Shown: positions 3,084-34,715 of the stretch, in pieces
Position numbering within the stretch: the first letter of the stretch is position 1
Layout of the letters: every line of letters begins with the position of its first letter
IMG/VR virus record: IMGVR_UViG_3300006108_000016
Coordinates: 1 to 64,000 of that record
DNA length: 64,000 bases
Source of the DNA: a virus
Reading direction: 5' to 3' (one strand)
The notes under the pieces: model-generated
Told to the model about the DNA's origin: nothing
The model's database searches: none
Seen by the model: the letters and a program-made list of their open reading frames with translations, nothing else
Program-made: the position numbers and the translations under genes

Positions 3084-3091
3084 TATTTAGT
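3084..3091 (-). promoter_or_regulatory. Late-promoter-like box ACTAAATA before gp13
   Basis: On the minus strand ACTAAATA lies 22 bases upstream of the gp13 ATG and touches the stop codon of the glycine-rich adhesin gene. It resembles the T4 late -10 element TATAAATA, and its spacing matches the other boxes in this window. AAGGAG sits between box and ATG. Confidence 0.55.
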
Positions 3092-4203
3092 TAAGCAGTA
3101 TAAGTACCAGAACTCGTAAACTTAAACCATGTATTTCCAGCACCATCAGGTCCACTTGTAAATACGCTTGGCGGACCAGCAGTTCCAGCTAATGGAGTTG
3201 GAACAGAAACATACACTACACCAGAACCTCCTGCACCACCTATACTAGGAGTTATAGGTGCTCTACATGAGCCTGCACCACCTCCACCTCCAGTATTAGT
3301 ACCGCCATTTTGTCCTGGTAATGGTGTCGGACTTCCCAATCTTGGGTATGCACATCCATAACCTGAACCATTACCACCACCTCCAGGACCACCAGGGCCT
3401 CCTACGAAACCGTTAGGTGGTTGAGTTGCACCATAACGTCCACCAGCACCTCCACCACCAGCTACGATGAAAGGACTTCCTGTTATTGAAACGGTCAGAC
3501 CGGAACCACCTGCACTCCCTGGTGTTGGAAATTGTGGAGTTCCTGTAAATGTTCTTGTTGATCCTGATGATGAAGCACCACCACCTCCACCATTATAATT
3601 ACCACCTGGATTACCGTAATTGGTCCAAACTATAGCAGGTCCGGATGGTGTTGGTTGTCCTGGTTGAGTACCTGAACCGCCTTGGTTGTTCGCATAAGGG
3701 AATGGTGCAACACCTGTTGGAGGACCAGTAGGTCCACCACCACCGCCACCTGAACCACCTGGTGCTACACAACCCCCTGTAGGAGCTGGTATGTAACAAC
3801 TATAACCTTTACCACCACCTCCACCTATTGCTGTAACACAAAATGCACTTGAGTTAACGCCTCGGAAAGTATAAGCATAACATATGGTTGTTGGATAAAC
3901 AGGTGCGGCACCTCCACCACCAACTGTTATTGCGTAGGGTGTTCCTTTTGATGCGGCCGCTACTGCACCAACAATAACACCACCACCTCCACCACCACCA
4001 GTCCAACGTTGTGCACCAGAACCACCACCCGCAACAATCACAAACGTTAATGGAACACCTACAGGACCGGTACTTCCACTGGGACCGCCAGGATATGCTG
4101 TTGATGTATTATTGATACAAGATGCTGATAATCTGCTTTTACTTGAATCGGCTAAGTTGGCAACATTTTTTGTGCTGAGTCTTTTTGTTTTAATAACTGC
4201 CAT
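3091..4203 (-). CDS. Glycine-island adhesin A (370 aa)
   Basis: A 370-residue protein made of polyglycine islands separated by variable loops. After a short basic N-terminus ('MAVIKTKRLSTKNVANLAD') comes 'FVIVAGGGSG', a hallmark of glycine-rich phage tail tips, then many GGGGG runs. Loops carry about seven cysteines (e.g. 'TICYAY', 'YSCYIPAPTGGCVAP', 'YGCAYP', 'GSCRAP'). The C-terminus 'GNTWFKFTSSGTY' is nearly identical to that of another glycine-rich protein 23 kb away. Architecture resembles T-even gp38 receptor adhesins, where glycine islands form a polyglycine-II core and loops choose the receptor. The homology itself is inferred. It is preceded by a ~107-aa beta protein, as in the other adhesin cassettes, and is the last gene of its module. 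Confidence 0.7.
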   Translation of the reverse strand: MAVIKTKRLSTKNVANLADSSKSRLSASCINNTSTAYPGGPSGSTGPVGVPLTFVIVAGGGSGAQRWTGGGGGGGVIVGAVAAASKGTPYAITVGGGGAAPVYPTTICYAYTFRGVNSSAFCVTAIGGGGGKGYSCYIPAPTGGCVAPGGSGGGGGGPTGPPTGVAPFPYANNQGGSGTQPGQPTPSGPAIVWTNYGNPGGNYNGGGGGASSSGSTRTFTGTPQFPTPGSAGGSGLTVSITGSPFIVAGGGGAGGRYGATQPPNGFVGGPGGPGGGGNGSGYGCAYPRLGSPTPLPGQNGGTNTGGGGGAGSCRAPITPSIGGAGGSGVVYVSVPTPLAGTAGPPSVFTSGPDGAGNTWFKFTSSGTYTA

Positions 4204-4218
4204 AACAATGCACCTTTG

Positions 4219-4542
4219 TTATGATATTTCGCAACCAAATACTGAGAATGAAACAGATGAATTATTAGCATAACATACAATAGCATCATTTGCACCCATT
4301 GTAATACCTGGTGTTAATGTCATTGTATCGTTTGCTGGCACGTTTGCACTATAAGCAATATAGTTTTTTGTTGAAAGTGTTTGTCCGTTAGGTACAACAC
4401 CTAATTGATAAGTAGCGAGAGAAGCACCTTGGTTTGCAATTAGAATTGATGAAATAATAGTATTCGCACCAGTCGATACCGCATACAATGTGGTATTTGT
4501 TGTTCCTGGTACTGCTTGACCTAAAACTCTATATGATAACAT
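4219..4542 (-). CDS. Small beta protein of the adhesin cassettes, copy 4 (107 aa)
   Basis: A 107-residue, beta-rich protein with no signal or membrane segment. It belongs to a family with three other members in this window (109, 109 and 116 aa). Shared pattern: short start 'YRVLGQ', a 'TLYAV' strand, 'ISSILIANQ', 'YIAYSANVPANDTMTLTPGI', a 'GANDAI' turn and the C-terminal 'FSVFGCEIS', equivalent to 'FGSEIT/FGSELS' in its paralogs. Each member sits directly upstream of a large adhesin gene, here the 370-aa glycine-rich protein. It may be a virion decoration, trimer cap or assembly factor for that adhesin. The fold (beta-sandwich) and role are inferred; I do not recognise a named family. Confidence 0.7.
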   Translation of the reverse strand: MLSYRVLGQAVPGTTNTTLYAVSTGANTIISSILIANQGASLATYQLGVVPNGQTLSTKNYIAYSANVPANDTMTLTPGITMGANDAIVCYANNSSVSFSVFGCEIS

Positions 4543-4551
4543 GAGTTGTTC

Positions 4552-4899
4552 CTACAAAAACGATAGTAAAAATGGATGAGGTATCTGAGACTCAACCCTT
4601 GTTGTTCCTACAAATACGTTTGAGCCTGTCGAAATATTAATTGAACCAGTGTATAAATTCGATGTAACATTCATAGTAACCGCATTTAATGTGACTGCAT
4701 TTAATGTAAATGCATTGAGTGTTAAAGTCGAAAGCACATTCATCGTTACTACATTTGTTGAAGGATTAAATGTTAATGAAGTAGCCGCAAACTCATAACT
4801 TGTTTTACCACCAACTTGCGTTGATGGTTGAACAGACATGTAAAAGGTAGTATTCTCAGATACTACCGGTAATACTGGAAGTTGTGCGGCTGTTTGCAT
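4552..4899 (-). CDS. Small adaptor-like tail protein (115 aa)
   Basis: A 115-residue Thr/Asn/Val-rich protein with short strand repeats 'TLNAFTLNAVTLNAVTMNV' and a tail 'TRVESQIPHPFLLSFL'. The C-terminus resembles those of the 183-aa and 533-aa proteins in the window ('QQNSFNPFFLAGM', 'QQNTIHPLMFVGL'). All three lie immediately upstream of a ~109-aa beta protein, which suggests the same structural slot. It starts one base before the end of the 1044-aa gene (ATG overlaps stop), so coupled translation is likely. No family is recognised; a fibre connector is an inference. Confidence 0.6.
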   Translation of the reverse strand: MQTAAQLPVLPVVSENTTFYMSVQPSTQVGGKTSYEFAATSLTFNPSTNVVTMNVLSTLTLNAFTLNAVTLNAVTMNVTSNLYTGSINISTGSNVFVGTTRVESQIPHPFLLSFL

Positions 4900-7800
4900 T
4901 ACGCTTGAGCTTCAGTCCATGAATAACGAGCTAAGATACTTGCAAGGTTCGTTGATGATACGTTCGTAGCAACAAGTGTCAATACGTCAGGTCCGTCAGG
5001 ATAGATACCGACACCAGTATTTGCAACACCACCAGATTGAATACTTGTACCAAGTGAAAGCAATTGTGTCAAATCGTTTTGAGTTGAACCGAATGTTCCT
5101 AAGTTGTTATTCAAGAAGAATCCGAAAACTGTTTCACCACCAGATACTGTTGTATTCTGTGCATGGAAAACATATTGAGACAAACTAGAACCACCAACGT
5201 TTTGCCATTGTGCTGTTGTATTTGAAACGCTACCGTTCAATACAAGAGTCATCAAACAAGCACCGTTAGAATAGGCATCAAGTTCAAATGGTAATTGTTG
5301 CATACGATTAACAATCTCACGAACACCAAGAGCAGAAGCTGGTATACCGTTTGATGCAGAAGGCGCAACACGGAAACTCCAAAGAGCCATTGTGTTAGCG
5401 GCACCACCGGCTGGATAAATTGTTAAAGGTGTTTGCATACCTTTTGAGAAAATGAACGATTTATCTGGTGTGAAACCGCCATCCATAATTGCTGAAGTAC
5501 CCCAATGGTTAATCTCAGGTCCGTATAATGGCGCATGTAACTCAACAGCAGTTGGAACTACAGCACCTTGATTGTTACCAGTGTATGTTAATGAGTTAGC
5601 ACCAGTTGCAGACAATACAACAACTGTTTGTGCAATGTTTGCTAATGGTGGAATAATAACTGCCGAGTTACCAGAAGCAGTTGGTGCTTGATTCAACACA
5701 ATATATGTGTTTGCAACAATGTTCTGAATAAACGTTTGTGGTGCAATGTTAGGACCAAACACGTACATACCGTTTGACAAACCATATGTTGTGTTACTTG
5801 CAGGTATAGTTACAATATTATTACCAGCAACTGTTGTTACATACAATGTATTACCAGTGTTACCCGTTTGATAAGCGGCACCACGTTGAGCGCCTGTTAA
5901 CTGTGCGGCACCGTTTGAAAGTGCTGTGATACCTGTATACGCAAAGTATTCAGTATTAGAGGTATTTCTAATTACTGCTACTCCGGTATTTGGCCATCCA
6001 GTTGCATTAGATATCGTAATTGTTGTATCTGTTGGTGCAACGTTTGCTGTTAGAACAGAAGTCTTAGAGAAAGAATTAGTTTCATAACGACCAGGTAAGT
6101 TACCTGAACGCATGTAAGCAAGATAGTTAACGTTATTATTAATTACTTTATGTGCATATATTACGTTACCATCAGGTCCACGAACACCCCAACGTTGAAA
6201 ACCAGCACCGTACCATGAATAGTCGATGTAGAACATTTGGTCTTTTGTCAAGTCAATCTTATAACCTGAAGGACCTGTTCCATCTAATCTATCAATGTTA
6301 AACTGTGAAACTGGTGTTTTAACGTCTTGAACTTTACTAATAACAGCAGAGTTGACGTTCTGAGTACCACGTAGTGTTGGTACAACTGTCAATACAGAGT
6401 CTGTAAGAATGTTGTGTACACGGTGTGGCATACCTTTGATTACAATAAAATCATTAGGTTGTAACTGCTTAGTAAAGATTGTATTGTTACCGTTTAATGT
6501 ATTTGAACCAGCATTAATCCAAGTGTTACCGGAAATCTGATAAACCGCATTTCGTCTTACTGCATATAATTGAGAACCGTCATATTCAAAGAACATGCCG
6601 TTTTGGTCATCGAAGATACCGATACGATTTGAAGAACCATACCATGTTGTTGCAGAACAAACATAGTTACCAGATGCAGGTGAATTTGCTGGTACAGAGT
6701 TTGCTGTATATGTGAACTGATATGGGTTCAATACGTTTGTGATTGCAAAGTTACCGTTATATGCCGCTTCGTTACAACCAGCGATTTGAATACCGATTGA
6801 AGCAGAAATATTGTGTGGGTCTTTTGTTGTAACTGTAACTGTTGTACCGCTTGATGTGATACCGTCTAAGTTAAACTGTGGTTGCAATGTTGTACCAGTT
6901 GACAACTGAATACCCTTACCAGATTGATAACGGAAATACTTACGTGTCTGACGAATAAACTGCTGATTGTGTGAACCAGAGTTTGTAGAGAAACGAATAC
7001 CACCGTCAAATGAACGATGTACTAGAGTACCGACTGGTCTTGCATATAAAGATGCACCTGATACTGTCATTGTACCAGAAGGTATTGAAGATGCGTTACA
7101 TTGATATACGAAGTTGTATGGGTTAATAATTGTTGAAACAACCCATGAACCGTTTGGTGGGTTTGTTCCTGTCACACCAGTAACTGCAATTTCATTACCA
7201 GGCATAAAGCCGTGAGCATTTGCTGTAGTTACAAATACGTTTTGACCAGAAGTTGTCATACCTGCAATTGTGATTGCAGAGTTTGTAAATGCATAACCTT
7301 GATAACCAATTGTTACGTTTTGATTATAAATCGTACCTGTTGTACCAGTATAATAGAATTTACCAGTATATGAGAATGTGTTAGCGGCACCTGAAGCGTT
7401 TGTGTTTGTCAGGTTGTTGTTTGAATCTACAACATAGTTACCGTCAGCACCAGCGTACAATGAATCTAAAATTGTGATTGGTGTTCCAACTGCTGGTGGT
7501 GTTGAACCTGTTGTATTTGCTGTGAAACTTCTTGAGCCGTTAACTGCTTGTAAGTCGATTAAGTTTAGGTTACCTGTTGAAGTAATATAATATGAAAACG
7601 GTCTCATATTGGTACGAGAAAGAGATTCCCACTTAGTCGCTTGTGTTGAATACTCAAAGTCGGTATCAATCAAAGACTGTGGTGTTGAAACTCTTAGTTT
7701 GTTAACTGGATCTAATAGAGTCTCAGAAGGCTGAAATGACTCATTGTATTCGTCAACTACAATACTTAACTTATCTGTAGCAGATAGTGCTGTCGTATTA

Positions 7801-8033
7801 TACGCTAAAGAAACAGTCGTAACGGTCGCATTAGGATAATTACCAGTCGTATCAAGACCGATAGTGTATGCAGTTGTAGTTAAGTTAGGGTCTGAGAAGT
7901 TAAAAATAACCTGATTTGTTGTCAAGTCAGTAATTAAAACTAGACGTTCTTTAGGTACAACGTGCGGTATAATAATCGTTCTAGATGATGGTATGAACGT
8001 GTAGTACGTATCAAGGATGACTTTTCTTGCCAT
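4899..8033 (-). CDS. Conserved virion structural protein (1044 aa)
   Basis: A 1044-residue protein starting 'MARKVILDTYYTFIPSSRTI', followed by 'PHVVPKERLVLITDLTTN' and 'ETLLDPVNKLRVSTPQSLID'. This start is familiar from large structural proteins of T4-like phages of marine bacteria. Residues ~235-440 contain two copies of a beta module with the pattern T-x-G-x-x-V-x-V-T-T ... H-G ... NG-x-(W/F)-x-V ... (Y/F)-x-F-x-Y. The second half has a sandwich-rich segment with 'ALGVREIVNRMQQLPFELDAY'. No enzyme motif is seen. It begins its own promoter module and is probably part of the baseplate rim or fibre base. ATG at 8033 has GGAG upstream. The exact role is unknown. Confidence 0.72.
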   Translation of the reverse strand: MARKVILDTYYTFIPSSRTIIIPHVVPKERLVLITDLTTNQVIFNFSDPNLTTTAYTIGLDTTGNYPNATVTTVSLAYNTTALSATDKLSIVVDEYNESFQPSETLLDPVNKLRVSTPQSLIDTDFEYSTQATKWESLSRTNMRPFSYYITSTGNLNLIDLQAVNGSRSFTANTTGSTPPAVGTPITILDSLYAGADGNYVVDSNNNLTNTNASGAANTFSYTGKFYYTGTTGTIYNQNVTIGYQGYAFTNSAITIAGMTTSGQNVFVTTANAHGFMPGNEIAVTGVTGTNPPNGSWVVSTIINPYNFVYQCNASSIPSGTMTVSGASLYARPVGTLVHRSFDGGIRFSTNSGSHNQQFIRQTRKYFRYQSGKGIQLSTGTTLQPQFNLDGITSSGTTVTVTTKDPHNISASIGIQIAGCNEAAYNGNFAITNVLNPYQFTYTANSVPANSPASGNYVCSATTWYGSSNRIGIFDDQNGMFFEYDGSQLYAVRRNAVYQISGNTWINAGSNTLNGNNTIFTKQLQPNDFIVIKGMPHRVHNILTDSVLTVVPTLRGTQNVNSAVISKVQDVKTPVSQFNIDRLDGTGPSGYKIDLTKDQMFYIDYSWYGAGFQRWGVRGPDGNVIYAHKVINNNVNYLAYMRSGNLPGRYETNSFSKTSVLTANVAPTDTTITISNATGWPNTGVAVIRNTSNTEYFAYTGITALSNGAAQLTGAQRGAAYQTGNTGNTLYVTTVAGNNIVTIPASNTTYGLSNGMYVFGPNIAPQTFIQNIVANTYIVLNQAPTASGNSAVIIPPLANIAQTVVVLSATGANSLTYTGNNQGAVVPTAVELHAPLYGPEINHWGTSAIMDGGFTPDKSFIFSKGMQTPLTIYPAGGAANTMALWSFRVAPSASNGIPASALGVREIVNRMQQLPFELDAYSNGACLMTLVLNGSVSNTTAQWQNVGGSSLSQYVFHAQNTTVSGGETVFGFFLNNNLGTFGSTQNDLTQLLSLGTSIQSGGVANTGVGIYPDGPDVLTLVATNVSSTNLASILARYSWTEAQA

Positions 8034-8083: not shown

Positions 8084-8087
8084 TATC

Positions 8088-8594
8088 TTAAAAACCCATT
8101 ACTACGTCAAGCGGCTTGAATGGGTACGTCTTTATTGAGGTTTGAGGTGAACCTAGAACCGTTCTCACTAAAATCTGTGAATCTGCCGGTACTGAATCGG
8201 CAAACTTAAGGTATCCGTTAGTTGTTGGGTTACCTGAAAGGTCAATTGTGTAACCTTTTGAACCTGTAAGTATATTTGCTAACCATACTGTGTCGTATTT
8301 GTAGTCGAAAGCAGGCTGTAATATACCATTAACAGTTACTGAAATAGTAAAAGGTGAGTTACAAGTCACAGGTGAACCATTCCATCTCAAAGGAAATGTA
8401 TTTGTGAAACCGTCAGTTAGATATGAAACGTCATCAAAATCAAATATGTTTGTGAAGTTTGTCAGTTGCGTTGAGGTGTAAATATTCGCAACGTTTTGTG
8501 TCTTCTTCCAAGCATTAAAGTTTGAGTTGTAGGTATACAGTACACCATTGAGTGATGCTTGTTGACCGTTTGTTGGGTTTGTTGGAAATGCCAT
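8088..8594 (-). CDS. Tail-fibre-type adaptor protein with 'NGQ' N-terminus (168 aa)
   Basis: A 168-residue protein beginning 'MAFPTNPTNGQQASLNGVLY', a motif shared with the 183-aa and 110-aa proteins of this window ('FP..PTNGQ.A.VNG..Y.YNS....W'). The rest is beta-rich, with 'IFDFDDVSYLTDGFTNTFPL', 'ILQPAFDYKYDT' and 'QILVRTVLGSP', common in phage structural proteins that describe a deformable beta surface. It is the last gene of the module that also contains the 305-aa glycine-rich adhesin. No catalytic motif is visible. It is probably a minor fibre or baseplate component; its precise place is not known. Confidence 0.65.
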   Translation of the reverse strand: MAFPTNPTNGQQASLNGVLYTYNSNFNAWKKTQNVANIYTSTQLTNFTNIFDFDDVSYLTDGFTNTFPLRWNGSPVTCNSPFTISVTVNGILQPAFDYKYDTVWLANILTGSKGYTIDLSGNPTTNGYLKFADSVPADSQILVRTVLGSPQTSIKTYPFKPLDVVMGF

Positions 8595-8597: not shown

Positions 8598-9515
8598 TTA
8601 TCCTGTATACGTAAACGTTCCAGTTGACGAGAATGTGTGAACCTGTATGACTGTTGAAGGTGATGTTGGCGGACTATAAGAAGTTACCGTACCGCCTGTA
8701 CCTTTTTGTGTCGGACTTACATATGAAATAATTACAATACCTGGTGAACCAGCTACTGAACCTGTTACTGGTGTACTTCTTCCAGGGCCGCCAGTTCCAT
8801 ATGTAGATAAGCCATATCCACCAGTTGCTGTAACGCCATTATTTACAGATGCACCACCACCACCACAACTGTAATATTGTACAGTTCCTGAAATATCGCT
8901 TATTGCACCGTAGCCACCTTGACCACCACCATAAACAGTCGGTGATGTAAAACCTGTTGCAGGAAATTTAAAACCTGGTGAACCTGCACCACCTCCTCCA
9001 CCATTTCCATAATTACAACCAGGATTTGTTGGTGCTAGAAAAAAACATGCAACACCAGGATTTCCTTGACCCGATACGCCTGTACCACCTAAACTATTTC
9101 CACCACCTCCAGAACCACCTGGTGTACCAGCAACTGCAGGACCGGCACCCCCACCTCCACCGCCATATGCAGTTACTGAAAATCCCGATCCACAAATAGT
9201 TGAGTTTGAACCAGTACCTCCTACGTGTGCACCACATGCTGATGGTGTTCTATTACCGCCGGAACCAACTGTTATAGTATAAGGCACACCAACAGTTAAA
9301 AGTGCTTGACTTTGTAAAAATCCGCCACCACCACCTCCTCCACCAACTGTAGTTTTTGGTGATCCTGGTGCGTAACCACCTCCACCTCCACCAGCTACTG
9401 CTAAGTAACGAATTTGATATGTAGTTGATGTGGTAGAACCACCTCCACCACCACTATTGATAGCAGAGATTGTTCTATTCTTAACAGAGTTTTGAGAATC
9501 TCTTTTAACTGCCAT
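8598..9515 (-). CDS. Glycine-island adhesin B (305 aa)
   Basis: A 305-residue glycine-rich protein. The basic N-terminus ('MAVKRDSQNSVKNRTISAI') is followed by 'YLAVAGGGGGG', 'PYTITVGSGG' and many GGGGG islands with variable loops. Five cysteines lie in loops ('SACGAH', 'TICGSG', 'VACFFLAPTNPGCNYG', 'YYSCGGGG'). The C-terminal strand 'VHTFSSTGTFTYTG' corresponds to 'WFKFTSSGTYTA' in adhesin A. The layout suggests a polyglycine-II fibre tip with receptor-choosing loops, as in gp38-like adhesins of T-even phages (inference from architecture). It overlaps the 109-aa beta gene by one base (TAATG), so the two are likely made together. Confidence 0.7.
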   Translation of the reverse strand: MAVKRDSQNSVKNRTISAINSGGGGGSTTSTTYQIRYLAVAGGGGGGYAPGSPKTTVGGGGGGGGFLQSQALLTVGVPYTITVGSGGNRTPSACGAHVGGTGSNSTICGSGFSVTAYGGGGGGAGPAVAGTPGGSGGGGNSLGGTGVSGQGNPGVACFFLAPTNPGCNYGNGGGGGAGSPGFKFPATGFTSPTVYGGGQGGYGAISDISGTVQYYSCGGGGASVNNGVTATGGYGLSTYGTGGPGRSTPVTGSVAGSPGIVIISYVSPTQKGTGGTVTSYSPPTSPSTVIQVHTFSSTGTFTYTG

Positions 9516-9844
9516 TAGGTTATTTCCGATCCAAACATTACAAATGAAACGTTAGGTGTATTGGCTTGAACTGTTACGGTATCTGTATTACCTAAAGCCA
9601 TACCAATAGTAAATGAAATTGAGTCGTATCCTGGTACTGTTGTGTTGAAAGCAACATACTGAGAGTTTGCTAATGATGCACCAGCAACTTGCGTTGAAAT
9701 AAAGAAAGATGCCGCATTTACGTTTTGATTACAGACTTGAAATGTTGAAACGACAGTCTGTGTATTTGCCGGTACTGTATAGATTACAGTAGGTGTATTT
9801 GCGGCAGGATTTGATTGGGCTAATGTTCTGTATTTTATTGGCAT
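9515..9844 (-). CDS. Small beta protein of the adhesin cassettes, copy 3 (109 aa)
   Basis: A 109-residue beta-rich protein closely related to the 109-aa product at 20,794-21,123. Shared blocks are 'QSNPAANT', 'VYTVPA.TQTVVSTFQVCN', 'AGASLANS.Y.A...T.PG.DSI', 'GNTDTV.V.ANT' and the C-terminal 'FGSEIT'. Its stop overlaps the start of the glycine-rich adhesin B gene. Paralogs of this protein stand before the other large adhesins too, which points to a dedicated partner role: connector, cap or folding helper. No known domain is recognised by eye. Confidence 0.72.
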   Translation of the reverse strand: MPIKYRTLAQSNPAANTPTVIYTVPANTQTVVSTFQVCNQNVNAASFFISTQVAGASLANSQYVAFNTTVPGYDSISFTIGMALGNTDTVTVQANTPNVSFVMFGSEIT

Positions 9845-9853: not shown

Positions 9854-10405
9854 CTACATTCCCGCTAAGAAGAATGGGTTGAAAGAATTTTGTTGCATGT
9901 ATGATAATATGTATGTATTAGCATTTTGAGTTCCGATACTCAATGTATTTGCATTAACAGAATTAACATTTAATGTTGCCGATGCATATATACCGTTTGC
10001 TAAATTTGCGACAACATTATTTGCGTAATTTGAAACGTTTGCCGTTGAAAGCGTTTCTTGAGCAAGAACTAATGCGTTTGCTGTATTGGCAAATGTGTTT
10101 GCGCTATTTGCAATAGTACTTGTTAGAAATGGTGTCAACGCAACGTTTGAAACTACCGCAGAAGATGAGATATCTAACCAGAAGAAGTTACTTCCGTTGC
10201 TTGTAGTCCACTCATAGATAACATCGTCAGTCTGAGAATACCATTGAGTACCGACAACGTTAATTGACGGCGCAGTATTAGAAACAATTATTTGACCAAG
10301 GTAAGCCTGTTGGCGAGTCCAAGTGCCAATAGAAGAGTTCCAGACATACGTAATGCCGTTAACTAATGCTGTTTGACCGTTTGATGTTGCGACTGGAAAT
10401 GACAT
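9854..10405 (-). CDS. 'NGQ/GxxWY' fibre adaptor protein (183 aa)
   Basis: A 183-residue protein with three parts. The N-terminal 'MSFPVATSNGQTALVNGITY' matches the NGQ family. Residues ~38-75 hold the tail-fibre motif 'VSNTAPS....GTQWY......YEW......FFWLDIS'. An Asn/Ala-rich helical stretch with 'ANTFANTANALVLAQE' follows, then the end 'QQNSFNPFFLAGM'. The WY/WLD motif is widespread in phage side-fibre proteins. The C-terminal motif recurs in the 115-aa and 533-aa proteins, which likewise precede a ~109-aa beta gene. It is first in its module, 23 bases downstream of a late-promoter box. It is probably a fibre shaft or connector. Confidence 0.68.
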   Translation of the reverse strand: MSFPVATSNGQTALVNGITYVWNSSIGTWTRQQAYLGQIIVSNTAPSINVVGTQWYSQTDDVIYEWTTSNGSNFFWLDISSSAVVSNVALTPFLTSTIANSANTFANTANALVLAQETLSTANVSNYANNVVANLANGIYASATLNVNSVNANTLSIGTQNANTYILSYMQQNSFNPFFLAGM

Positions 10406-10428: not shown

Positions 10429-10436
10429 TATTTATT
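10429..10436 (-). promoter_or_regulatory. Late-promoter-like box AATAAATA overlapping the LamG-2 stop codon
   Basis: Minus-strand AATAAATA contains the TAA stop of the 1537-aa adhesin gene and lies 23 bases upstream of the next ATG (183-aa gene). Sequence and spacing match the box at 16,148-16,155, which lies on the stop of the other LamG gene. Confidence 0.6.
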
Positions 10437-15045: not shown

Positions 15046-15395
15046 TAACCCATTACCTCGTATGTTGCAACTGCTTGAAGTGTGCCGTTGTTACTTGCTG
15101 TTAGACGAATTGCATCACCTTCATTTGCATAGAAGATTCTATCAAAGACACCGAAGGTTGTATTTGCCGGCATTGAAATATTTGAAACAATAATATAAGG
15201 TACATTGTTTCTGTATATGTCTGCGGTAATATATTGAACGTTCGTAGAATAATTTGCAACAACTAAACTGTCAATTCTAAACAATTGATTTGAATTATTT
15301 GCATTTGAAATAATAGCAGTTGCAGTTGTCGTAACGTTTTGTACTGCTGTATTGCCGTTTAGATAATTGATTTGAACTAGATTAGGGGTTGTCAT
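15045..15395 (-). CDS. Small beta protein of the adhesin cassettes, copy 2 (116 aa, divergent)
   Basis: A 116-residue beta-rich protein. Its plan matches the 107-109-aa family although the sequence is more distant: 'TATAIISN', 'RIDSLVVANYS', 'YIIVSNISMPANTTFGV', 'ANEGDAIRLTASNNG' and the end 'ATYEVMG'. As with the others, its stop overlaps the start of a large adhesin, here the 1537-aa LamG protein. The overlap with the 110-aa adaptor on the other side suggests tight coupling of all three. Function unknown; membership in the family is inferred from strand pattern, size and position. Confidence 0.62.
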   Translation of the reverse strand: MTTPNLVQINYLNGNTAVQNVTTTATAIISNANNSNQLFRIDSLVVANYSTNVQYITADIYRNNVPYIIVSNISMPANTTFGVFDRIFYANEGDAIRLTASNNGTLQAVATYEVMG

Positions 15396-16147: not shown

Positions 16148-16155
16148 TATTTATT
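16148..16155 (-). promoter_or_regulatory. Late-promoter-like box AATAAATA overlapping the LamG-1 stop codon
   Basis: Minus-strand AATAAATA contains the TAA stop of the 1547-aa adhesin gene and lies 23 bases upstream of the ATG at 16,124. A strong AAAGGAGAA Shine-Dalgarno sits between them, leaving room for a short leader. Confidence 0.65.
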
Positions 16156-22738: not shown

Positions 22739-23305
22739 TTAGAAATTTCCACCGTCTTCTATTGATTGTGTCGGCAAAGTCTTTTGTTTAACAAACGACT
22801 TCGTTTTTTGTGGAGTTTGGTTAGCGGCAATTGTTGTTGCAATAGTCTGTTTCAAATTTTCAATTTCACCTTTAAGACTGCTGTTCTCAGTTTTTAATTG
22901 AGCATTTTCATTTTGTGCAGACGTTAGTGTACCATTAACTTGATTCAAATGTTCAACTTGATTTTTCAATCGTTGAATTTCATCACGCAATTCAATTTTA
23001 ATATTATCCAGTTTCGTTTGACTTTGAGATAAAGAATCATTCTTTTCAGATAATTCTTTTTTCAATTTCTCATTGTCAGCTTTTAATTGTGTTAATGTTT
23101 CATTTTCATCGTCACTTTTTTCAGCTTTTTCTTTTTCATAATCGGCAACCATCATCATGTATTTTTGAGTCTGCTCTCCTTGCTCTCTCAGAGCAGACTC
23201 TAAAAACTTCAAATTCGCTTGTAAAGTAAAATTATTATTTTGCAATTCACTTGATGCATTTTTTAATATGTCAACATAACCACTCAAATACTTTTCATTA
23301 TCCAT
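22739..23305 (-). CDS. Coiled-coil tail protein ending in DGGNF (188 aa)
   Basis: A 188-residue protein that is almost entirely coiled coil: long Glu/Lys/Gln/Leu heptads from residue ~15 to ~150, e.g. 'ENETLTQLKADNEKLKKEL' and 'NAQLKTENSSLKGEIENLKQ'. A short basic tail ends in 'IEDGGNF'. The C-terminal DGGxF-type motif recurs at the ends of the 936-, 73- and (weaker) 74-aa proteins nearby. Proteins of this plan are common in T4-like phages of aquatic bacteria, usually beside fibre genes, but no function is assigned. A rod or assembly factor is plausible. The coding DNA contains a perfect 11-base inverted repeat. AGGAG precedes the ATG. Confidence 0.7.
   Translation of the reverse strand: MDNEKYLSGYVDILKNASSELQNNNFTLQANLKFLESALREQGEQTQKYMMMVADYEKEKAEKSDDENETLTQLKADNEKLKKELSEKNDSLSQSQTKLDNIKIELRDEIQRLKNQVEHLNQVNGTLTSAQNENAQLKTENSSLKGEIENLKQTIATTIAANQTPQKTKSFVKQKTLPTQSIEDGGNF
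23167..23200. repeat. Intragenic hairpin, 11-bp perfect stem
   Basis: GAGTCTGCTCT at 23,167-23,177 and AGAGCAGACTC at 23,190-23,200 are exact reverse complements with a 12-base loop, inside the 188-aa coiled-coil gene. One mismatch outward, four more A-T pairs could extend the stem. There is no U-tract typical of a terminator directly after it on the minus strand. Confidence 0.7.
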
Positions 23306-23331: not shown

Positions 23332-23339
23332 TATTTAGA
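23332..23339 (-). promoter_or_regulatory. Late-promoter-like box TCTAAATA overlapping the 936-aa gene stop
   Basis: Minus-strand TCTAAATA contains the TAA stop of the 936-aa fibre gene and lies 26 bases upstream of the ATG at 23,305, with AGGAG between. It is a variant of the late element, with spacing like the other boxes. Confidence 0.5.
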
Positions 23340-26396: not shown

Positions 26397-27431
26397 TTAT
26401 ACTCGATATGTACCAGAAGAAGTGAATTTAAACCAAGTGTTACCTAGGCCGTCAGTTCCTGTTGTGAAAACGGTTGGTGGTCCGGCAGTTCCTTTCTTTG
26501 CAGTATTCGCTGAAATGAAGACGACACCAGAACCACCATTCATACCAGGAAACCATTCCTCATTTGGAGAACATGAATGTGTTGGTGGTTGTATAAAGTT
26601 CCAACCTGTAAATCCGCCAGCACCACCCCCACCCCCAGTATTTACAGTACCAGCAGTACGTCCAGTCGCATATGCACCTTGCACACCTCCACTACCACCA
26701 TTACCGCCCCCACCAGAGCCACCTGTACCGCCTGCAGTATAAAAAAAATACGGACTAGGATAAAATGTTGGTCTGCACCCTTGGCAACCGCCAGCCGCAC
26801 CTCCACCACCAACTGTTACAGGTGAACTAGGACCCATAATAGTTATTACTCGTCCAGAACCACCATTTGCCCCTACACCTGAAGTCCCTGCACTTCCTGC
26901 TCCACCACCACTACCGAAAAACATACCTGAAGGGGTGGTTCCAGAACCTCCAGGATTTCCTTGACCTGGTACTCCGGGCGCACTTTGAGGATTACCGCCA
27001 GATGCACCACCACCACCAGACCCTCCACCTAATGCACCAAAACTTGAACACATACCTGGCCACCCACCACGTCCGGCACCACCGCCTGTTGAACTTACAG
27101 ATCCTAATGTGCAAGGATTCGATATTGTAGAACCTGAACCGCTAGTACCTCTCACATAATAACCTCCAGCATTACCAGGATATACTAAAGGTCCTCCATT
27201 ATTTGCGGCAACACCTCCACCACCAATAGTTACTGTTACAGTCGAACCTTTTTTAGGAAAAGTAACTTGACCAGACAATACACCACCAGCACCACCGCCA
27301 CCAAAAGTACCACCTGACCCACCACCGGCAACCAAAACATAATTAACAGTTACTGGAATCGGTTTTAAGTTGGCAGTAGCCATTCCAACACCTGAAAACC
27401 CAAAGCCACTTGACGATGATATTCTACTCAT
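26397..27431 (-). CDS. Glycine-island adhesin C (344 aa)
   Basis: A glycine-rich protein of 344 residues. The start at 27,431 ('MSRISSSSGFGFSGVGM') is chosen because it begins directly after the stop of the upstream 1512-aa gene. A longer reading would overlap that gene and begin with an unlikely Trp/His/Cys-rich leader. 'VNYVLVAGGGSGGTFGGGGA' opens the glycine core, followed by GGGG islands and loops containing 'NPCTLG', 'GMCSSFG', 'CQGCRPTFYPSP' and 'THSCSPNEEW'. The end 'GNTWFKFTSSGTYRV' is nearly the same as adhesin A. Architecture suggests a receptor-binding tip like gp38 of T-even phages. Unlike adhesins A and B it is not preceded by a ~109-aa beta protein but by a giant fibre gene. Confidence 0.7.
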   Translation of the reverse strand: MSRISSSSGFGFSGVGMATANLKPIPVTVNYVLVAGGGSGGTFGGGGAGGVLSGQVTFPKKGSTVTVTIGGGGVAANNGGPLVYPGNAGGYYVRGTSGSGSTISNPCTLGSVSSTGGGAGRGGWPGMCSSFGALGGGSGGGGASGGNPQSAPGVPGQGNPGGSGTTPSGMFFGSGGGAGSAGTSGVGANGGSGRVITIMGPSSPVTVGGGGAAGGCQGCRPTFYPSPYFFYTAGGTGGSGGGGNGGSGGVQGAYATGRTAGTVNTGGGGGAGGFTGWNFIQPPTHSCSPNEEWFPGMNGGSGVVFISANTAKKGTAGPPTVFTTGTDGLGNTWFKFTSSGTYRV

Positions 27432-27433
27432 AA

Positions 27434-30400
27434 TTAATAATATGTTGCGTATGAACCAAGAACAGTTATAGTACCACCAATATTTATGATGGCAAATGTG
27501 AGGAAATCCCATTGACTTGCATTACCAGTGTAAGAAGTTCCGCCTAACCATTTTGGTGTATAACCTGTTCCGTTAACTTGAATAGTACTTGGATAATATG
27601 CTGTGCTACCTTGATTGTTAATCAAAGTAACTAGAACTGATTTATTTTGTGTTGTTGGTACATTTGTAAAGTTTGCTGTCCAGTTTTGTGTCATACCGGT
27701 ATTATAGTATGTAGGTCCAGCATTGAAATCATAAGTCACAGAAGAACCAGGATTACCAGTGTTCGTAATATTTTCTGTAGTTTGTTGTATGGTGACAAGA
27801 CCAGTAGCAGTAAACGTGTTAGTTGTAATATTGTTACTTGCTGTTACGTTTGTACTTGTAAACGCACCGTTACTGTACACGTTTGCAACAGGAGTAGTAC
27901 CGACACCGCCAGTATAGAATGTTATGTAATCATTTGGACCGACTGAAATTCTACCGATACCATTTGTACCTTGAACGTAGTCCATAACAATACCGTCATT
28001 GAATGAACCTATCACAGGTTGGAATGTATTGCCAGAATAGACACCATTATTTGCAAATACATCACCACCGACATAAGTATTACCAGTAATACCCACACCA
28101 CCAGCAACTGTTAATGCACCAGTAGTTATTGAAGTTGATACTTGAGAATTCGTTATCGCAAATTGCGAAACACCGTTCACAGTTATTAAAGAACCAACGT
28201 TTGCAAGTGAATTATTTGCTTGTATAAAAGAAGCGTTTGCTGTTACAAAAGCACCATTAGCAAACAGACCAGCAGAATTTGCAACTGAGAATACTAAATT
28301 GTCTTGTGCAAATGCGGCACGTGCGTATACGTTAACAGAATTTGCAAAAGCATATGCTGAATATGCATAGGTATTTACGCTGTTAGCAAATGTAAATGCA
28401 CCGTTTGCAAATACAGCGGCAGAGTTAGCTTGACCAAAAGCACTATTTGCGAATGAGGCTGTTGTATTTTGTGCAGTATAAGATGCATTAGCGAAACCAG
28501 CAGTTATGTTTTGTGCTGAATATGATGCATATGCATAAGTGTTGACTGTGTTAGAAAAACCATAACTTGAAGTAATATAAGGATAGACATTCAAACCACT
28601 AAGAGTTAGTGTTGTTGTAATTGTTTCTGTCGTGTTAACAGTTACATTATTGAATGTTGTTACAGTACCGTTAACATACAAGTTACCTTGAATACTTACG
28701 TTACCGGTATAATATGCGTTTGGTACTAATAGTGTTGTATTAGATGTTAGATATACAAAGTTGGCATCAGAACCAATTATATTATTTGCCAATGCAAATT
28801 GAACGTTGCCGTTATTACCTGAACTTATTGAAGTATTAGTTGAAACAGTTTGAGTTGATACTGTAACTTCAATTAATGCTGTATTAGCAGGTGGGCTTGA
28901 GAAGACAATATTTGCACCAGACAATGTATAACTATTTCTTAGTAATGTAATACCGTTATAGTTAACAGACGTTGCATTGATAGAATACGGTGTAACGCCT
29001 AATGCAAATGATGTAGTTGCACCGTCACCAGTAAAATTAACAACTGTAATGCCTGAAGTTGTGAGAGAATTTGCTTTTGCAAATGCGGCATACGCATATG
29101 TGTTGACACTATTAGCAAAGTTATATGATGCATTTGCAGTTATAAATGCACCGTTAGCAAAAGATGCTGTTGTGTTTTGCGAATTGTATGATGCGTTTGC
29201 TGTTACAAAGGCACTATTAGCGAATGATGCGGTAGTGTTCTGTGCATTATAGGAAGCATTTGCAGTAGCAAAAGCGCCGTTAGCGAACGATGCGGTAATG
29301 TTTTGAGATGCATATGATGCATTTGCAGTAGCAAAAGCGCCGTTAGCGAACGATGCGGTAATGTTTTGAGATGCATACGATGCATAAGAATAAGCATTAA
29401 CAGTATTCGCATAAGCACCAAGTTCTACACCTGCAACATATATTGCTGGAGTCGTAATGTTACCGGTTTGAATCTTATCATAAATTAAATTGGCATCAGA
29501 CCAGTTGATTGTTGTTGAAGGTTCTGATGTTAGATTGCTGAACAGTCCCCAAATGCCTGTATTGTGATTACGAACAAAACCAGTTCTTTGATATCCGTTA
29601 TTTGTAAAGTGTCCGACAATACCCAAATCAACAACGTTAGATGTATTATTGGTACCAATTAAAATAATCGAATCGTTTGTTGATATATTATTTGCGTTAA
29701 CAAAAGTGGAATTACCAGCAATATACAAGTTACCAGTGACATGTAAATCAGTGCTGATAACAACAGAACCAGCAACTGTACCACCAGTTGAAACGAATGT
29801 ATTACCAACATTAGCGGCCGCATAAGCAGAGTACGCATATATGTTGATGCTATTAGCAAACGTGTAAGAAGCATTTGCAAATCCTGCTGTTATGTTTTGT
29901 GCATTGAAAGCACTATTTGCTTGAATGAAAGCGGCATTAGATGTGTTCCATGCTGATGCTACGTTTACTGCATTTAATGTATTTGCATAAGAAAAGGCGG
30001 CATATGCATAAGTATTAATTGAATTTGCAAAAGAATATGCGCTGTTAGCAAACGAAGCAGTTATATTTTGTGCCGCATAAGATGCATTAGCAGTAACAAA
30101 TGCACCGTTGGCAAATCCTGCCGTAGTATTTTGTGCCGTATATGATGCGTTTGCAAAACCAGCAGTTATGTTTTGAGCAGAATAAGAAGAGTTTGCTGTT
30201 ACGAAGGCACTATTTGCAAATGATGCAGTTGTATTTTGAGCATTGTAAGATGCATTTGCTTGTGCAAACGATGCTGTAATATTGGTGTTCTGTACATTTT
30301 CAATACCTTGCAATGTTACTGTATTAGAAGATGCAGAATTTGCAGTTGTAAACGAACCATTAGCAAAAGAAGATGCCGTATTTGCTTGATTAAAGGCCGC

Positions 30401-31972
30401 ATTTGCTTGTGTATAAGCAGAGTTGGCAAACGAAGCAGTAATGTTTTCTGCAACAAATGAACTGTTTGCGACTAAGAAAGCGGCATTAGCAAAACCAGCA
30501 GTAATATTCTGTGCAGTATAAGCACTATTAGCAGTCAAGAATGATGCATTAGAATATGCATAAGGTGCGGCCGCTGTGTACTGACTTGTACCATCAATAC
30601 CGAATGTGTGTTGATTTGCAGTTAATTGATATGCTACAGTTGTATTACCACCGATGAAAGCATTATTAGAAATACCAACACCACCAGTGACGATAATTGT
30701 ACCGCTAACAGAATTAGTTGAATCAATACCGGCATTTGCTGTTAAACTTGCAAAAGAACCTACAGAGTTTGCACCTGTACCAGAAACGGCAAACGTAGCG
30801 CCTGTTCCGCTGGTTAGTGAAATCGCATTACCTTGTGCTTGAATTAAAGCGCCACCAATATCAATCGTTGTACCAGTAACGTAGATTTTTCTCCAACGAC
30901 TTGTTGGGGAACCTAAATCATATCCTACACCAGTACCATCAGCATTAGCGGCAGGTAACATATGTCCTGCATATGTATTTCCTGCAAGGACAATTTGTCC
31001 TGTTGCTTGAGAGATTACAACGTTACCATTTGCATAAGCGGCAAGTGCAGTACCTACTGTTAAATTAGCACCAGCAATCACTAAGTTACCAGTCATTGTA
31101 TCACCGGCACGTCTTACAGCGGCATTGGCAACTGTGAAAGCACCATTAGCAAATATGGCCGCATTATTAGCTTGAGTAAATGCGGAAGAAATATTATTGT
31201 TCTGACTTGTTTCAACGCCTGTGATAAACGTTATGAACGTATTTGAATTAGCATAAGCAGTATTTGCTTGTGCATAAGCGGCATTAGCAGTATTAAATGC
31301 AGATGCCTCATTTGTTCCTAATGTATTTGCATATGCATATGCGGCATTAGCGAAACCAGCAGTTATATTTTGTGCATTATAGGAAGCATTTGCAGTAGCA
31401 AAAGCACTATTAGCAAATAATGCTCCCGAGTTTGCAACAACAAAAGCACCGTTAGCAAAAGATGCTGTTGTATTTTGTGCAGTATAACTTGAGTTTGCTT
31501 GTGTGTATGCTAAGTTAGCAGTATTAAAGGCTACGTTTGCTTGACTGAAAGCGGCATTAGCTTGATTAAAAGCTGGTGCAGAACTAGAGCCTGTGTTTGC
31601 TTGTGCAAAGGCGGCATTAGCTTGTGCAAAGGCGGCATTCGCTTGATTGAAAGCGGCCGCTGAACTACCGCCACCTGAACTATTGGCCGCATTAAAGGCG
31701 GCATTAGCTTGTGCATATGCTAAGTTAGCAGTAGGGTCAACTTTGTAAGTTAAATCACCATCTGCAATACCGTCACGAAACCAATACTCAATAACAGTAT
31801 TACCACCATTCGCACTTGCATTTGCAGAATTGATGCCAATTGTTAAACCTTGATAACGAACCGCAGACCCAACACTCGATAAAGCAATAGTTGTATTTAC
31901 ATATGGGCCAAAACGAGAATCAACTCCCTTAGGTGCCTGTATACTTAGATTGTCGTTTAGAATAATTGACAT
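27434..31972 (-). CDS. Giant tail fibre with 21-residue Ala/Asn repeats (1512 aa)
   Basis: A 1512-residue protein. Residues ~1-90 are a distinct N-terminal domain ('GVDSRFGPYVNTTIALSSVG', 'IEYWFRDGIADGDLTYKV') typical of fibres in T4-like phages of aquatic bacteria. Several long tracts of repeats follow, such as 'YNAQNTTASFANSAFVTANA' (21 residues, three heptads). Beta segments separate them ('TMTGNLVIAGANLTVGTALA', 'DSIILIGTNNTSNVVDLGIV'). The C-terminal ~100 residues hold 'SVLVTLINNQGSTAYYPSTI' and 'WLGGTSYTGNASQWDFLTFA', a beta domain common at fibre ends. It is probably a very long trimeric fibre. It contains a near-perfect 63-bp tandem repeat and shares DNA with the 936-aa gene. Confidence 0.75.
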   Translation of the reverse strand: MSIILNDNLSIQAPKGVDSRFGPYVNTTIALSSVGSAVRYQGLTIGINSANASANGGNTVIEYWFRDGIADGDLTYKVDPTANLAYAQANAAFNAANSSGGGSSAAAFNQANAAFAQANAAFAQANTGSSSAPAFNQANAAFSQANVAFNTANLAYTQANSSYTAQNTTASFANGAFVVANSGALFANSAFATANASYNAQNITAGFANAAYAYANTLGTNEASAFNTANAAYAQANTAYANSNTFITFITGVETSQNNNISSAFTQANNAAIFANGAFTVANAAVRRAGDTMTGNLVIAGANLTVGTALAAYANGNVVISQATGQIVLAGNTYAGHMLPAANADGTGVGYDLGSPTSRWRKIYVTGTTIDIGGALIQAQGNAISLTSGTGATFAVSGTGANSVGSFASLTANAGIDSTNSVSGTIIVTGGVGISNNAFIGGNTTVAYQLTANQHTFGIDGTSQYTAAAPYAYSNASFLTANSAYTAQNITAGFANAAFLVANSSFVAENITASFANSAYTQANAAFNQANTASSFANGSFTTANSASSNTVTLQGIENVQNTNITASFAQANASYNAQNTTASFANSAFVTANSSYSAQNITAGFANASYTAQNTTAGFANGAFVTANASYAAQNITASFANSAYSFANSINTYAYAAFSYANTLNAVNVASAWNTSNAAFIQANSAFNAQNITAGFANASYTFANSINIYAYSAYAAANVGNTFVSTGGTVAGSVVISTDLHVTGNLYIAGNSTFVNANNISTNDSIILIGTNNTSNVVDLGIVGHFTNNGYQRTGFVRNHNTGIWGLFSNLTSEPSTTINWSDANLIYDKIQTGNITTPAIYVAGVELGAYANTVNAYSYASYASQNITASFANGAFATANASYASQNITASFANGAFATANASYNAQNTTASFANSAFVTANASYNSQNTTASFANGAFITANASYNFANSVNTYAYAAFAKANSLTTSGITVVNFTGDGATTSFALGVTPYSINATSVNYNGITLLRNSYTLSGANIVFSSPPANTALIEVTVSTQTVSTNTSISSGNNGNVQFALANNIIGSDANFVYLTSNTTLLVPNAYYTGNVSIQGNLYVNGTVTTFNNVTVNTTETITTTLTLSGLNVYPYITSSYGFSNTVNTYAYASYSAQNITAGFANASYTAQNTTASFANSAFGQANSAAVFANGAFTFANSVNTYAYSAYAFANSVNVYARAAFAQDNLVFSVANSAGLFANGAFVTANASFIQANNSLANVGSLITVNGVSQFAITNSQVSTSITTGALTVAGGVGITGNTYVGGDVFANNGVYSGNTFQPVIGSFNDGIVMDYVQGTNGIGRISVGPNDYITFYTGGVGTTPVANVYSNGAFTSTNVTASNNITTNTFTATGLVTIQQTTENITNTGNPGSSVTYDFNAGPTYYNTGMTQNWTANFTNVPTTQNKSVLVTLINNQGSTAYYPSTIQVNGTGYTPKWLGGTSYTGNASQWDFLTFAIINIGGTITVLGSYATYY
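29256..29381. repeat. 63-bp direct tandem repeat, near identical
   Basis: Copies at 29,256-29,318 and 29,319-29,381 differ at about one base (catatgat versus catacgat) and encode 21 residues of the fibre shaft. Diverged copies of the same unit flank them. The near identity, including third positions, points to a recent duplication or gene conversion. Confidence 0.85.
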
Positions 31973-31975
31973 GTT

Positions 31976-34099: not shown

Positions 34100-34323
34100 T
34101 AAAAGTATCCGTTATCAATAGATGTAATAGCGTTGCCAATATTTTCAACGTAAAACAATTTCTGTGATTGCGAGTAAACAATAACGTCACCGTCTTGAGC
34201 ACCGGCAAGATTCAAATCTGTTGAACCTGCAAGCGAACGAAGACCACCATAAGAAACCGCAGTTACTTTTGGTGTGTTTTGACCAATGGTTACTTTGACT
34301 GATGAAGGTGGATTAGTTGCCAT
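34099..34323 (-). CDS. Short conserved tail protein ending in IDNGYF (74 aa)
   Basis: A 74-residue protein: 'MATNPPSSVKVTIGQNTPKV', 'GGLRSLAGSTDLNLAGAQDG', 'DVIVYSQSQKLFYVENIGN', end 'SIDNGYF'. The 'L..A.DGDV.VY....KLF.V' pattern is common in small fibre-associated proteins of T4-like phages. The C-terminal motif is a variant of the DGGxF ending of its neighbours. It is coupled to the 707-aa fibre by a one-base overlap. Function unknown; a fibre connector is likely from context. Confidence 0.65.
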   Translation of the reverse strand: MATNPPSSVKVTIGQNTPKVTAVSYGGLRSLAGSTDLNLAGAQDGDVIVYSQSQKLFYVENIGNAITSIDNGYF

Positions 34324-34326
34324 ATG

Positions 34327-34680
34327 TTACCCCGATGTTACACCAGGAGCAACTTCTGCAATTCCTTCAAGGATTCTAATGACTGTGTTCGCTTGACCAC
34401 TACCAGCGTAGAAAGAAAGCACAGCATCGTATACATAACGACCTGGTGTGATGTTTGCCGTATTGGCTGAGTCTAAAGAAAACGTAACTTGACCTGTATT
34501 TGCCGAAATTGTTGTGGCAAAAGTTGCCGCTACGTTAGGTGTATAGTAAGAATACCTCATTTTACTATACACATTGGCGCCAGAAAGAGAGTAGGCCTCT
34601 CCATATACATCATCTAATGTGATTGTAAATGCAAAAGATGCACCTTGTTCTAGGTAGAGATTTTGATATCCTGCGGCCAT
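34327..34680 (-). CDS. Beta-sandwich structural protein (117 aa)
   Basis: A 117-residue protein with the pattern 'LYLEQGASFAFTITLDDVYG', 'YSLSGANVYSKMRYSYYTP', 'GQVTFSLDSANTANITPGRY', 'VYDAVLSF', 'RILEGIAEVAPGVTSG'. This pattern (strand, 'TITL.D..G', 'L.GA', 'PGRYVYD', 'R.LEG...V.PGVT') is found in many phages as a small Ig-like baseplate or fibre-associated protein. It leads the adhesin region, 27 bases downstream of a late-promoter box. No enzymatic residues. Confidence 0.7.
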   Translation of the reverse strand: MAAGYQNLYLEQGASFAFTITLDDVYGEAYSLSGANVYSKMRYSYYTPNVAATFATTISANTGQVTFSLDSANTANITPGRYVYDAVLSFYAGSGQANTVIRILEGIAEVAPGVTSG

Positions 34681-34707
34681 GTTTTCTTATTCTAATTGTT
34701 CTTACTC

Positions 34708-34715
34708 TATTTAGT
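34708..34715 (-). promoter_or_regulatory. Late-promoter-like box ACTAAATA at the head of the adhesin region
   Basis: Minus-strand ACTAAATA, 27 bases upstream of the ATG at 34,680, in the 44-base gap after the S74 fibre gene. It lies within a short inverted repeat (CTTACT ... AGTAAG, 34,701-34,718). The box sequence is the same as that before gp13. Confidence 0.55.

Follow-up and report, generated by a model that had tools for sequence, protein, structure and literature searches.

The host-recognition cluster of a T4-like virus may hold exchangeable adhesins on a docking chain of fibre tails, jelly-roll connectors and adhesin tags

How a phage changes its receptor-binding proteins without breaking its tail is an old question, and the known answer, that of gp37 and gp38, comes from a few enteric phages. 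The question is raised anew by the adhesin region of a lake virus, IMG/VR record IMGVR_UViG_3300006108_000016, of which 64 kb out of 65.4 kb were analysed (hereafter, the window). The minus strand of the region, which extends from position 34,715 to 3,084, contains four three-gene cassettes, each encoding an adaptor or fibre protein, a small beta protein, and a large adhesin of the Gly-rich or LamG type. A first-pass annotation of the sequence interpreted the cassettes as independently transcribed units that are duplicated, lost, or swapped from promoter to promoter. That interpretation is partly supported here. We consider it moderately probable that the exchangeable adhesins are instead held by a docking chain composed of a fibre tail, a jelly-roll connector (the small beta protein), and an adhesin tag.

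In the proposed chain, the adaptor or fibre protein would end in a short hydrophobic C-terminal tail, to which the connector of about 110 residues, probably trimeric, would bind. The large adhesin, Gly-rich or LamG, whose reading frame overlaps the end of the connector gene by 1 or 4 bases, would dock on the connector by its N-terminal tag. Each of two connector subfamilies, 109 and 116, would read its own C-terminal tail and its own N-terminal tag, so that unrelated fibres and adhesins could be combined when their tags match. Evolution would swap the parts outside this block, namely adhesin bodies after the tag and adaptor bodies before the tail, and whole cassettes could also be lost. Late-transcribed units with such a chain at their core would make up the host-recognition cluster. 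We infer the binding between tail, connector, and adhesin, the trimeric state of the connector, and its location at the fibre tip.

The C-terminal tails carry most of the evidence. Proteins encoded upstream of 109-type connectors end in PF[LF][LM]xG[AM]- or LMLMGG-like peptides, and 56 of the 59 proteins upstream of 116-type connectors end in STGKAIAM[AS]IVFG under a loose pattern. In loci that were not picked by their connector, 5/7 open reading frames (ORFs) with a 109-like tail lie before a connector, compared to 4/1527 other ORFs. Viral contigs were scanned for both peptides, using the first 120 matches of each scan and removing redundancy on the last 60 residues only. Among the matches listed, PFLLMGA followed by a stop codon directly precedes a 109-type connector in 97 of 98 nonredundant cases and a 116-type connector in none. 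The peptide GKAIAMxIVFG is C-terminal in all 120 matches listed, and among these a 116-type connector follows in 95 of 101 nonredundant cases and a 109-type connector in none. The tail-bearing proteins are approximately 50 to 1600 residues long and belong to at least 14 unrelated families for the 116 tail and at least 19 for the 109 tail. In hundreds of environmental viruses, two short peptides predict almost without exception which connector gene comes next. No paper on the tail peptides turned up in a literature search.

On the other side of the connector, adhesins encoded behind 109-type connectors tend to start with M-[AGS]-hydrophobic-[KR]-x-x-[ST]. Two or more of the three positions agree in 46–58% of these adhesins, compared to 10% in the background and 2–8% behind 116-type connectors. 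The 116-type tag, NGGxIG or ASGxW, is found in 63–73% of the adhesins behind 116-type connectors, against 2–4% behind the 109 type and 3% in the background. The window fits these types: LamG1547 and Gly305 have 109-type tags, and LamG1537 (MFNGGFKG) has a 116-type tag. The tags were scored by positional frequencies; a BLOSUM comparison of Gly-rich and LamG N-termini gave alike scores from low-complexity stretches.

The small proteins b109A, b109B, and b107 of the window form one sequence family, whereas b116 belongs to a divergent subfamily, linked to the 109 type by intermediate sequences in an iterative search. The profiles of the two subfamilies align in register (E 0.005), and their predicted strand orders match closely. 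AlphaFold2 predictions, made on single connectors, give b109A an eight-stranded jelly-roll built of strands only, with a predicted local distance difference test score (pLDDT) of 93.7, and b116 a pLDDT of 86.1. The predicted folds agree, so the four proteins are not of unrelated folds; their likeness, proposed by the first-pass annotation, holds for the fold, while by sequence b116 stands apart. Weak fold matches of the connector in the PDB include TNF-like proteins, a trimeric phage cement protein, ring proteins, endospore-appendage subunits, and nucleoplasmin-like domains. PDB sequence searches with the connector alignments gave no match. Predicted viral structures contain many close matches, most of them uncharacterised, as well as a domain of cyanophage tail-fibre proteins. 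The proteins b109A, b109B, and b107 match one or both of the profiles phrog_1276 and phrog_11338, and b116 matches neither.

A scan of viral contigs with a connector alignment found at least 580 relatives; an alignment built from 11 b116 sequences proved too divergent for scanning. In divergent loci, the gene behind that of the connector encodes a LamG or Gly-rich adhesin, and the two usually overlap by 1 or 4 bases; the order adaptor, small beta protein, adhesin noted in the first-pass annotation recurs widely. Among 50,697 deposited phage records, 3 have a 109-type connector as a separate gene, and so do five contigs from metagenome-assembled cellular bins. The cultured Pontimonas phage phiPsal1 has a connector. 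The same domain, recognised by profile or fold, is present in the phrog_1276 and phrog_11338 proteins, T4-GC 345 of S-SM1, and M4QS96 of Synechococcus phage S-CAM1, where, unlike in the window, it is joined in one protein with the tail-fibre body that follows. The fused domain of cyanophages Syn30 and S-SM1 forms the N-terminus of a "tail fiber" protein whose gene starts 6–9 bases after one ending in LQQFFYAGF and has late boxes on both sides. No long fused connectors were found within the environmental viral loci examined.

Further connector-like proteins are encoded in T4-like loci L068, L070, L082, L083, L048, L063, L098, and L115, with other hydrophobic C-terminal tails on the upstream gene, for example FFLSNLLSGG ahead of an adhesin starting with MSRYLKDSSA. 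Judging from these sequences, additional connector subfamilies may exist.

It is unlikely that the beta protein is an assembly chaperone that, as T4 gp38, Tfa of Mu, or Pam3 gp25, binds the fibre C-terminal tail during folding and then leaves, with the adhesin attached directly to the fibre. A small gene right behind a fibre-like gene is a common position for a chaperone, and such chaperones can be absent from virions (PMC9608196). However, chaperones of the Tfa/gp38 type combine a beta-sandwich with a C-terminal helical trimerisation domain, which the predicted eight-stranded jelly-roll lacks. Moreover, the domain is fused to the cyanophage "tail fiber" protein, annotated as structural in S-SM1, and connector-specific tags are found on both neighbours, not on the upstream one alone. 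A role of the beta proteins as receptor-binding heads, that is, C1q/TNF-like lectin domains joined by tags that are mere linkers, appears quite improbable. The jelly-roll fold would suit such heads, and in marine phages, C1q-like genes beside tail fibres have been classed among the receptor-binding proteins (PMC3909814). Nevertheless, the connectors are among the better-conserved parts of the cassettes, with 75–98% identity in the relative G003 compared to 41–42% for the LamG adhesins, and one and the same connector serves quite different adhesins.

Relatives of the virus indicate where the cassettes break. The informative ones are G003, the gp13 of which is 85% identical to that of the window, and L009 and L010 (88%). 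G001, G002, and G004 are nearly identical to the window across the region and add no breakpoints. The region is non-syntenic among relatives and its flanks are kept; the neck genes remain collinear while the contents of the slots swap. In slot 3 of L009, b109B is kept (87%) and Gly305 is replaced by LamG1554, an adhesin of 1554 residues. DNA identity in this slot becomes high about 27 codons ahead of the adaptor stop, stays so up to around adhesin codon 20, and then falls to chance level. The adhesin tag is MAVKRDSQNSVKNRTIS in the window and MSVKRVSQNSFKNRTIA in L009; the connector and tag are retained, with a LamG body in place of the Gly-rich one. In slot 3 of G003, identity ends near adaptor codon 93; a different adaptor end and a different Gly-rich gene take the place of the connector and Gly305. 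The C-terminus of the fibre-like protein F1512 is 85% identical in G003, where another adhesin comes next: instead of the Gly-rich gene after F1512 there are collar-like proteins (MSRINQTGALGFIGIG...), and the tag MSRI...GFxGxG is kept. Directly after the swapped 193-aa gene, G003 has two more collar-like genes (L107:2037-3046; 175 and 160 amino acids (aa); HTH-motif of the "PPHTH/ASHTH" type), and from their sequences the collar-like genes seem to encode short receptor-binding proteins arranged in tandem.

In L009 and L010, the whole cassette of the 115-aa adaptor, b107, and Gly370 is absent, gp13 starts 9 bases after the 1044-aa gene, and the late-promoter-like box at 3084 is gone too. Both gp13 and the 1044-aa gene are intact, so the idea that cassettes can be exchanged without disturbing their neighbours holds for this one loss, and it agrees with the collinearity of the neck genes. 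Within the window, the DNA shared by paralogous cassettes 1 and 3 comprises the last 85 bp of the adaptor gene, the connector gene, and about 15 bp of the adhesin gene. The exchange points in near relatives are intragenic: some fall within the adaptor gene, others in the adhesin gene behind its first 17–20 or so codons. The last ~27 adaptor codons, the beta gene, and the first adhesin codons form the block that is conserved and duplicated.

The block could in principle be kept as DNA homology for recombination and not for protein binding. Near relatives mostly have 70–97% DNA identity over the block with flanks at chance level, so that it can serve as a crossover region. In distant phages, however, the tails are spelled in 80 distinct ways among 101 sequences (116 type) and 69 among 98 (109 type), and the spacing between the tail gene and the connector gene varies. 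The many spellings indicate selection on the peptide, not on the DNA, and make recombination homology a most improbable reason for the conservation.

The late-promoter-like boxes give a different division of the region. T4 late promoters have the sequence TATAAATA and those of Aeh1 CTAAATA (PMC1524935). In the window, TAAATA is present 18–60 nucleotides upstream of 7 of 40 minus-strand gene starts, compared to 0.48 expected from the in-gene rate (Poisson probability near 1e-6). Six of the seven are the boxes named in the first-pass annotation, which had placed them correctly. Late genes of G003 have the same motif upstream, and the cassette boxes are conserved in G003 and L009 wherever the sequence is present. 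In three boxes of the window, the TAA doubles as stop codon for the gene upstream. From their sequence, the boxes may be used by a phage late sigma factor. The boxes do not uniformly stand right before an adaptor gene: only the 183-aa adaptor is first after a box, and the 533-aa adaptor follows the 188-aa gene, the 110-aa adaptor the 131-aa gene, and the 115-aa adaptor the 1044-aa gene. In divergent phages with LamG-type adhesins, a box is found after the adhesin in 11/14 loci, before the adaptor in 9/13, between connector and adhesin in 0/14, and before the connector in 1/14 (3% expected). Loci of the Gly-rich type have a box after the adhesin in 8/20 cases, before the adaptor in 8/15, and at neither internal position. 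The order box, adaptor, beta gene, adhesin, box thus recurs, and this distribution indicates that the three genes tend to be one unit flanked by late boxes.

That the boxes are also the joints at which promoter-to-promoter cassettes are duplicated, lost, or swapped is doubtful. In many phages the three genes have a box at either end, and the loss of the cassette in L009 and L010 ends 22 bp from a box. The swapped-in LamG adhesin of L009 and Gly-rich adhesin of G003 each carry at the stop codon a CAATAAATA box that the window lacks, which indicates that boxes travel with adhesin 3' ends. However, the upstream exchange points are inside adaptor or adhesin genes, at least 300 bp from any box of the window, and the block shared by cassettes 1 and 3 excludes the boxes. 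About one in seven exchange points is within 50 bp of a box of the window, and this one, on the gp13 side of the loss in L009 and L010, is where the box itself is deleted. Tandem cassettes without an intervening box exist (L128, L152). Intrinsic terminators in the window give no signal above chance, and none is present at the cassette junctions, so that independent transcription of the units is only a possibility. The boxes were rejected as exchange points for most breakpoints, which fall inside genes; when the gp8–gp13 region is aligned among relatives, the breakpoints are largely unrelated to the boxes. Promoter positions by themselves mislead about the unit of exchange.

An extra hairpin of about 60 bp (AAAGTGGGATAACATCCCACTTTT) lies beside a late box of G003, between the homologue of the 936-aa gene and the coiled-coil gene (L107:6219-6307); the window has no hairpin there. 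The PeSL elements reportedly place early promoters with a stem-loop at module borders. They resemble the present case in tying promoters to module shuffling in T4-type genomes, as "mobile regulatory cassettes" (Arbiol 2010, as cited in PMC3797505), and in the one stem-loop next to a box in G003. In contrast to PeSL, the boxes here are late-type, exchange points lie elsewhere, and the cassette borders of the window have no terminator-like hairpin.

Several observations weigh against the docking chain. The adaptor and Gly-rich adhesin in slot 3 of G003 adjoin without a connector, which is therefore not always needed. Where connectors are at least 75% identical and adhesin bodies unrelated, the tags are at least 50% identical in only 123 of 1672 pairs; this 7% is five times the control rate of 1.4%, with pairs that are not independent of one another. 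The tag pattern is loose, and a change of body often brings a new tag. Six of the 116-type tails have no recognisable connector behind them, and the adaptor ahead of b107 ends in HPFLLSFL, a variant tail. A Foldseek search against solved structures found no connector match with E below 0.001.

The docking chain would explain how adhesins change without the tail being rebuilt, and where adhesin swaps break. We tentatively extend it to a coded plug-and-socket system common to tailed phages, T4-like and other, most of them uncultured. In this possible system, each family of small jelly-roll connectors would read a single short peptide at the C-terminus of whatever fibre carries it, and a single tag at the N-terminus of whatever adhesin. 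It would constitute a general assembly code for receptor-binding proteins, which could have escaped notice since hardly any isolate has the connector as a separate gene. Judging by the searches made, a two-sided, connector-specific tag code is new. The tail peptides provide a cheap direct test of modular docking and a route to finding adhesins in metagenomes and pairing them with fibres.

Among the closest known systems is that of T2- and S16-type phages, in which a Gly-rich polyglycine type II (PGII) adhesin is positioned on the tip of the distal long tail fibre (Dunne 2018, PMC12892980). The two systems have in common an exchangeable Gly-rich adhesin encoded directly behind fibre genes. The N-terminus of gp38 must match the gp37 fibre, and giving a chimera the T2 N-terminus restored its function (PMC12892980; T2/PP01), which makes gp38 of T2/PP01 a functional precedent for the docking chain. 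Conservation of the tags in the sequences compared here is consistent with gp38-like N-terminal docking on a fibre tip. In contrast to gp38, a separate jelly-roll connector gene lies between fibre and adhesin in the four cassettes; direct adjacency to a fibre gene is limited to the 344-aa Gly-rich gene. The matching elements here are short tags of two exclusive types, and LamG adhesins use the same mount. Gly305 has no sequence match to solved structures (phmmer against the PDB, E up to 1), although both Gly305 and Gly370 match Pfam Gly_rich_2 above the cut-off. The LamG adhesins (10432-15045 and 16151-20794) alternate between conserved and variable segments of about 50 residues when relatives are compared, with a period near 200 residues, resembling the constant and hypervariable pattern of gp38.

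A structural precedent for the docking chain is gp24 of myocyanophage Pam3, in which a TNF-like jelly-roll is directly followed by a Gly-rich receptor-binding domain (PMC9608196). However, gp24 is a single polypeptide with a helical anchor and a separate chaperone, whereas the jelly-roll and the Gly-rich part are encoded by separate genes here.

The window was assigned to a T4-like myovirus from its neck, terminase, and baseplate genes, with phrog profile matches for gp13, gp14, gp15, gp16, and baseplate wedge proteins. The adhesin region sits between the baseplate and neck genes, the position of the host-recognition cluster (HRC) of T4-like aquatic phages. It is an HRC, an island type already known, and shares with those of pelagimyophages and cyanomyophages a hypervariable tail-fibre island at this position (PMC7029224, available part). 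The same part of that source describes concanavalin-A-like domains in the HRC and reports an unsuccessful search for late promoters in pelagimyophages; the rule linking C-terminal tail, connector, and N-terminal tag is not described there. A megablast search of the 8–23 kb segment of the window against cultured phages gave zero matches. No glycosyltransferase genes are among the general profile matches of the window proteins, with no dedicated search made.

All ORFs named in the first-pass annotation are present with the positions and lengths it gave (Table 1). The beta and adhesin genes overlap by one base in three cassettes and are 15 bases apart in the fourth, exactly as annotated. Its inventory of Gly-rich adhesins is correct for the two cassette genes but overlooked a third, which has no connector. 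The ORF listed for it, of 371 aa (26397-27512), overlaps F1512 by 79 bases; the gene probably starts at ATG 27431, 2 bases after the F1512 stop, and encodes 344 aa.

Table 1 Features of the adhesin region, from high to low window coordinates
Feature	Position	Strand	Remarks
Late-promoter-like box (CTAAATAGA) before 117-aa chaperone-like gene	34708..34713	-	In weak hairpin, z -1.4
F1512 fibre-like protein, C-terminal domain directly before Gly-rich adhesin (slot without connector)	27434..31972	-	
Third Gly-rich adhesin, 344 aa from probable start ATG 27431, tag MSRISSSSGFGFSGVG, no connector	26397..27431	-	
Late box, overlapping stop codon of 936-aa gene	23332..23337	-	
Coiled-coil protein, 188 aa, C-tail DGGNF, first gene of unit 1	22739..23305	-	
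Adaptor, 533 aa, C-tail ...QQNTIHPLMFVGL, the 109-type tail preceding b109A	21133..22734	-	
b109A jelly-roll connector	20794..21123	-	phrog_1276 match; AlphaFold2 pLDDT 93.7; family A3
LamG adhesin, 1547 aa, six Laminin_G_3 domains, N-tag MGIRRASIG	16151..20794	-	Overlaps b109A by 1 base
Late box, overlapping LamG1547 stop; kept in G003	16148..16153	-	
131-aa protein (phrog_7759), first gene of unit 2; 80% identical in G003	15729..16124	-	
Adaptor, 110 aa, C-tail STGKSLAMSVLFGAQ, a 116-type tail	15395..15727	-	
b116 connector, second subfamily; 98% identical in G003	15045..15395	-	
LamG adhesin, 1537 aa, N-tag MFNGGFKG (116-type tag)	10432..15045	-	
Late box, overlapping LamG1537 stop; kept in G003	10429..10434	-	
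Adaptor, 183 aa, C-tail IGTQNANTYILSYMQQNSFNPFFLAGM; exchanged from codon ~93 in G003	9854..10405	-	
b109B connector; 87% identical in L009, there before a different adhesin	9515..9844	-	
Gly-rich adhesin, 305 aa, N-tag MAVKRDSQNSVKNRTIS	8598..9515	-	Pfam Gly_rich_2 E 3e-12
168-aa protein, N-terminus adaptor-like	8088..8594	-	
Late box before 1044-aa gene; kept in G003 and L009	8076..8081	-	
1044-aa virion structural protein (phrog_5838)	4899..8033	-	
Adaptor, 115 aa, C-tail ...IPHPFLLSFL; missing from L009/L010	4552..4899	-	
b107 connector; missing from L009/L010	4219..4542	-	
Gly-rich adhesin, 370 aa, N-tag MAVIKTKRLSTKNVANL; missing from L009/L010	3091..4203	-	Pfam Gly_rich_2
Late box before gp13; gone along with cassette in L009/L010	3084..3089	-	

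The 1044-aa structural gene changes its place among relatives: in G015 (L116), its homologue (59–63% identity) is located behind gp15 and not before gp13. Four proteins (8088-8594, 9854-10405, and 15395-15727 of the window, and L107:16923-17702) have a common N-terminal element of about 45 residues, M[AS]FPxxxTNGQxAxxNGxxYxWN, which, to judge from the sequence, is likely to be the proximal anchor of short adaptors. Three consecutive minus-strand genes, encoding a 73-aa protein (26174-26394), a 936-aa protein (23335-26145), and the 188-aa coiled-coil protein, all end in DGGxF. This C-terminal end is found in 27 of 3326 nonredundant ORFs, nearly all of which are homologues of the trio in T4-like loci (L012, L032, L044, L107, L144, L147), and DGGxF is possibly a third docking tail.

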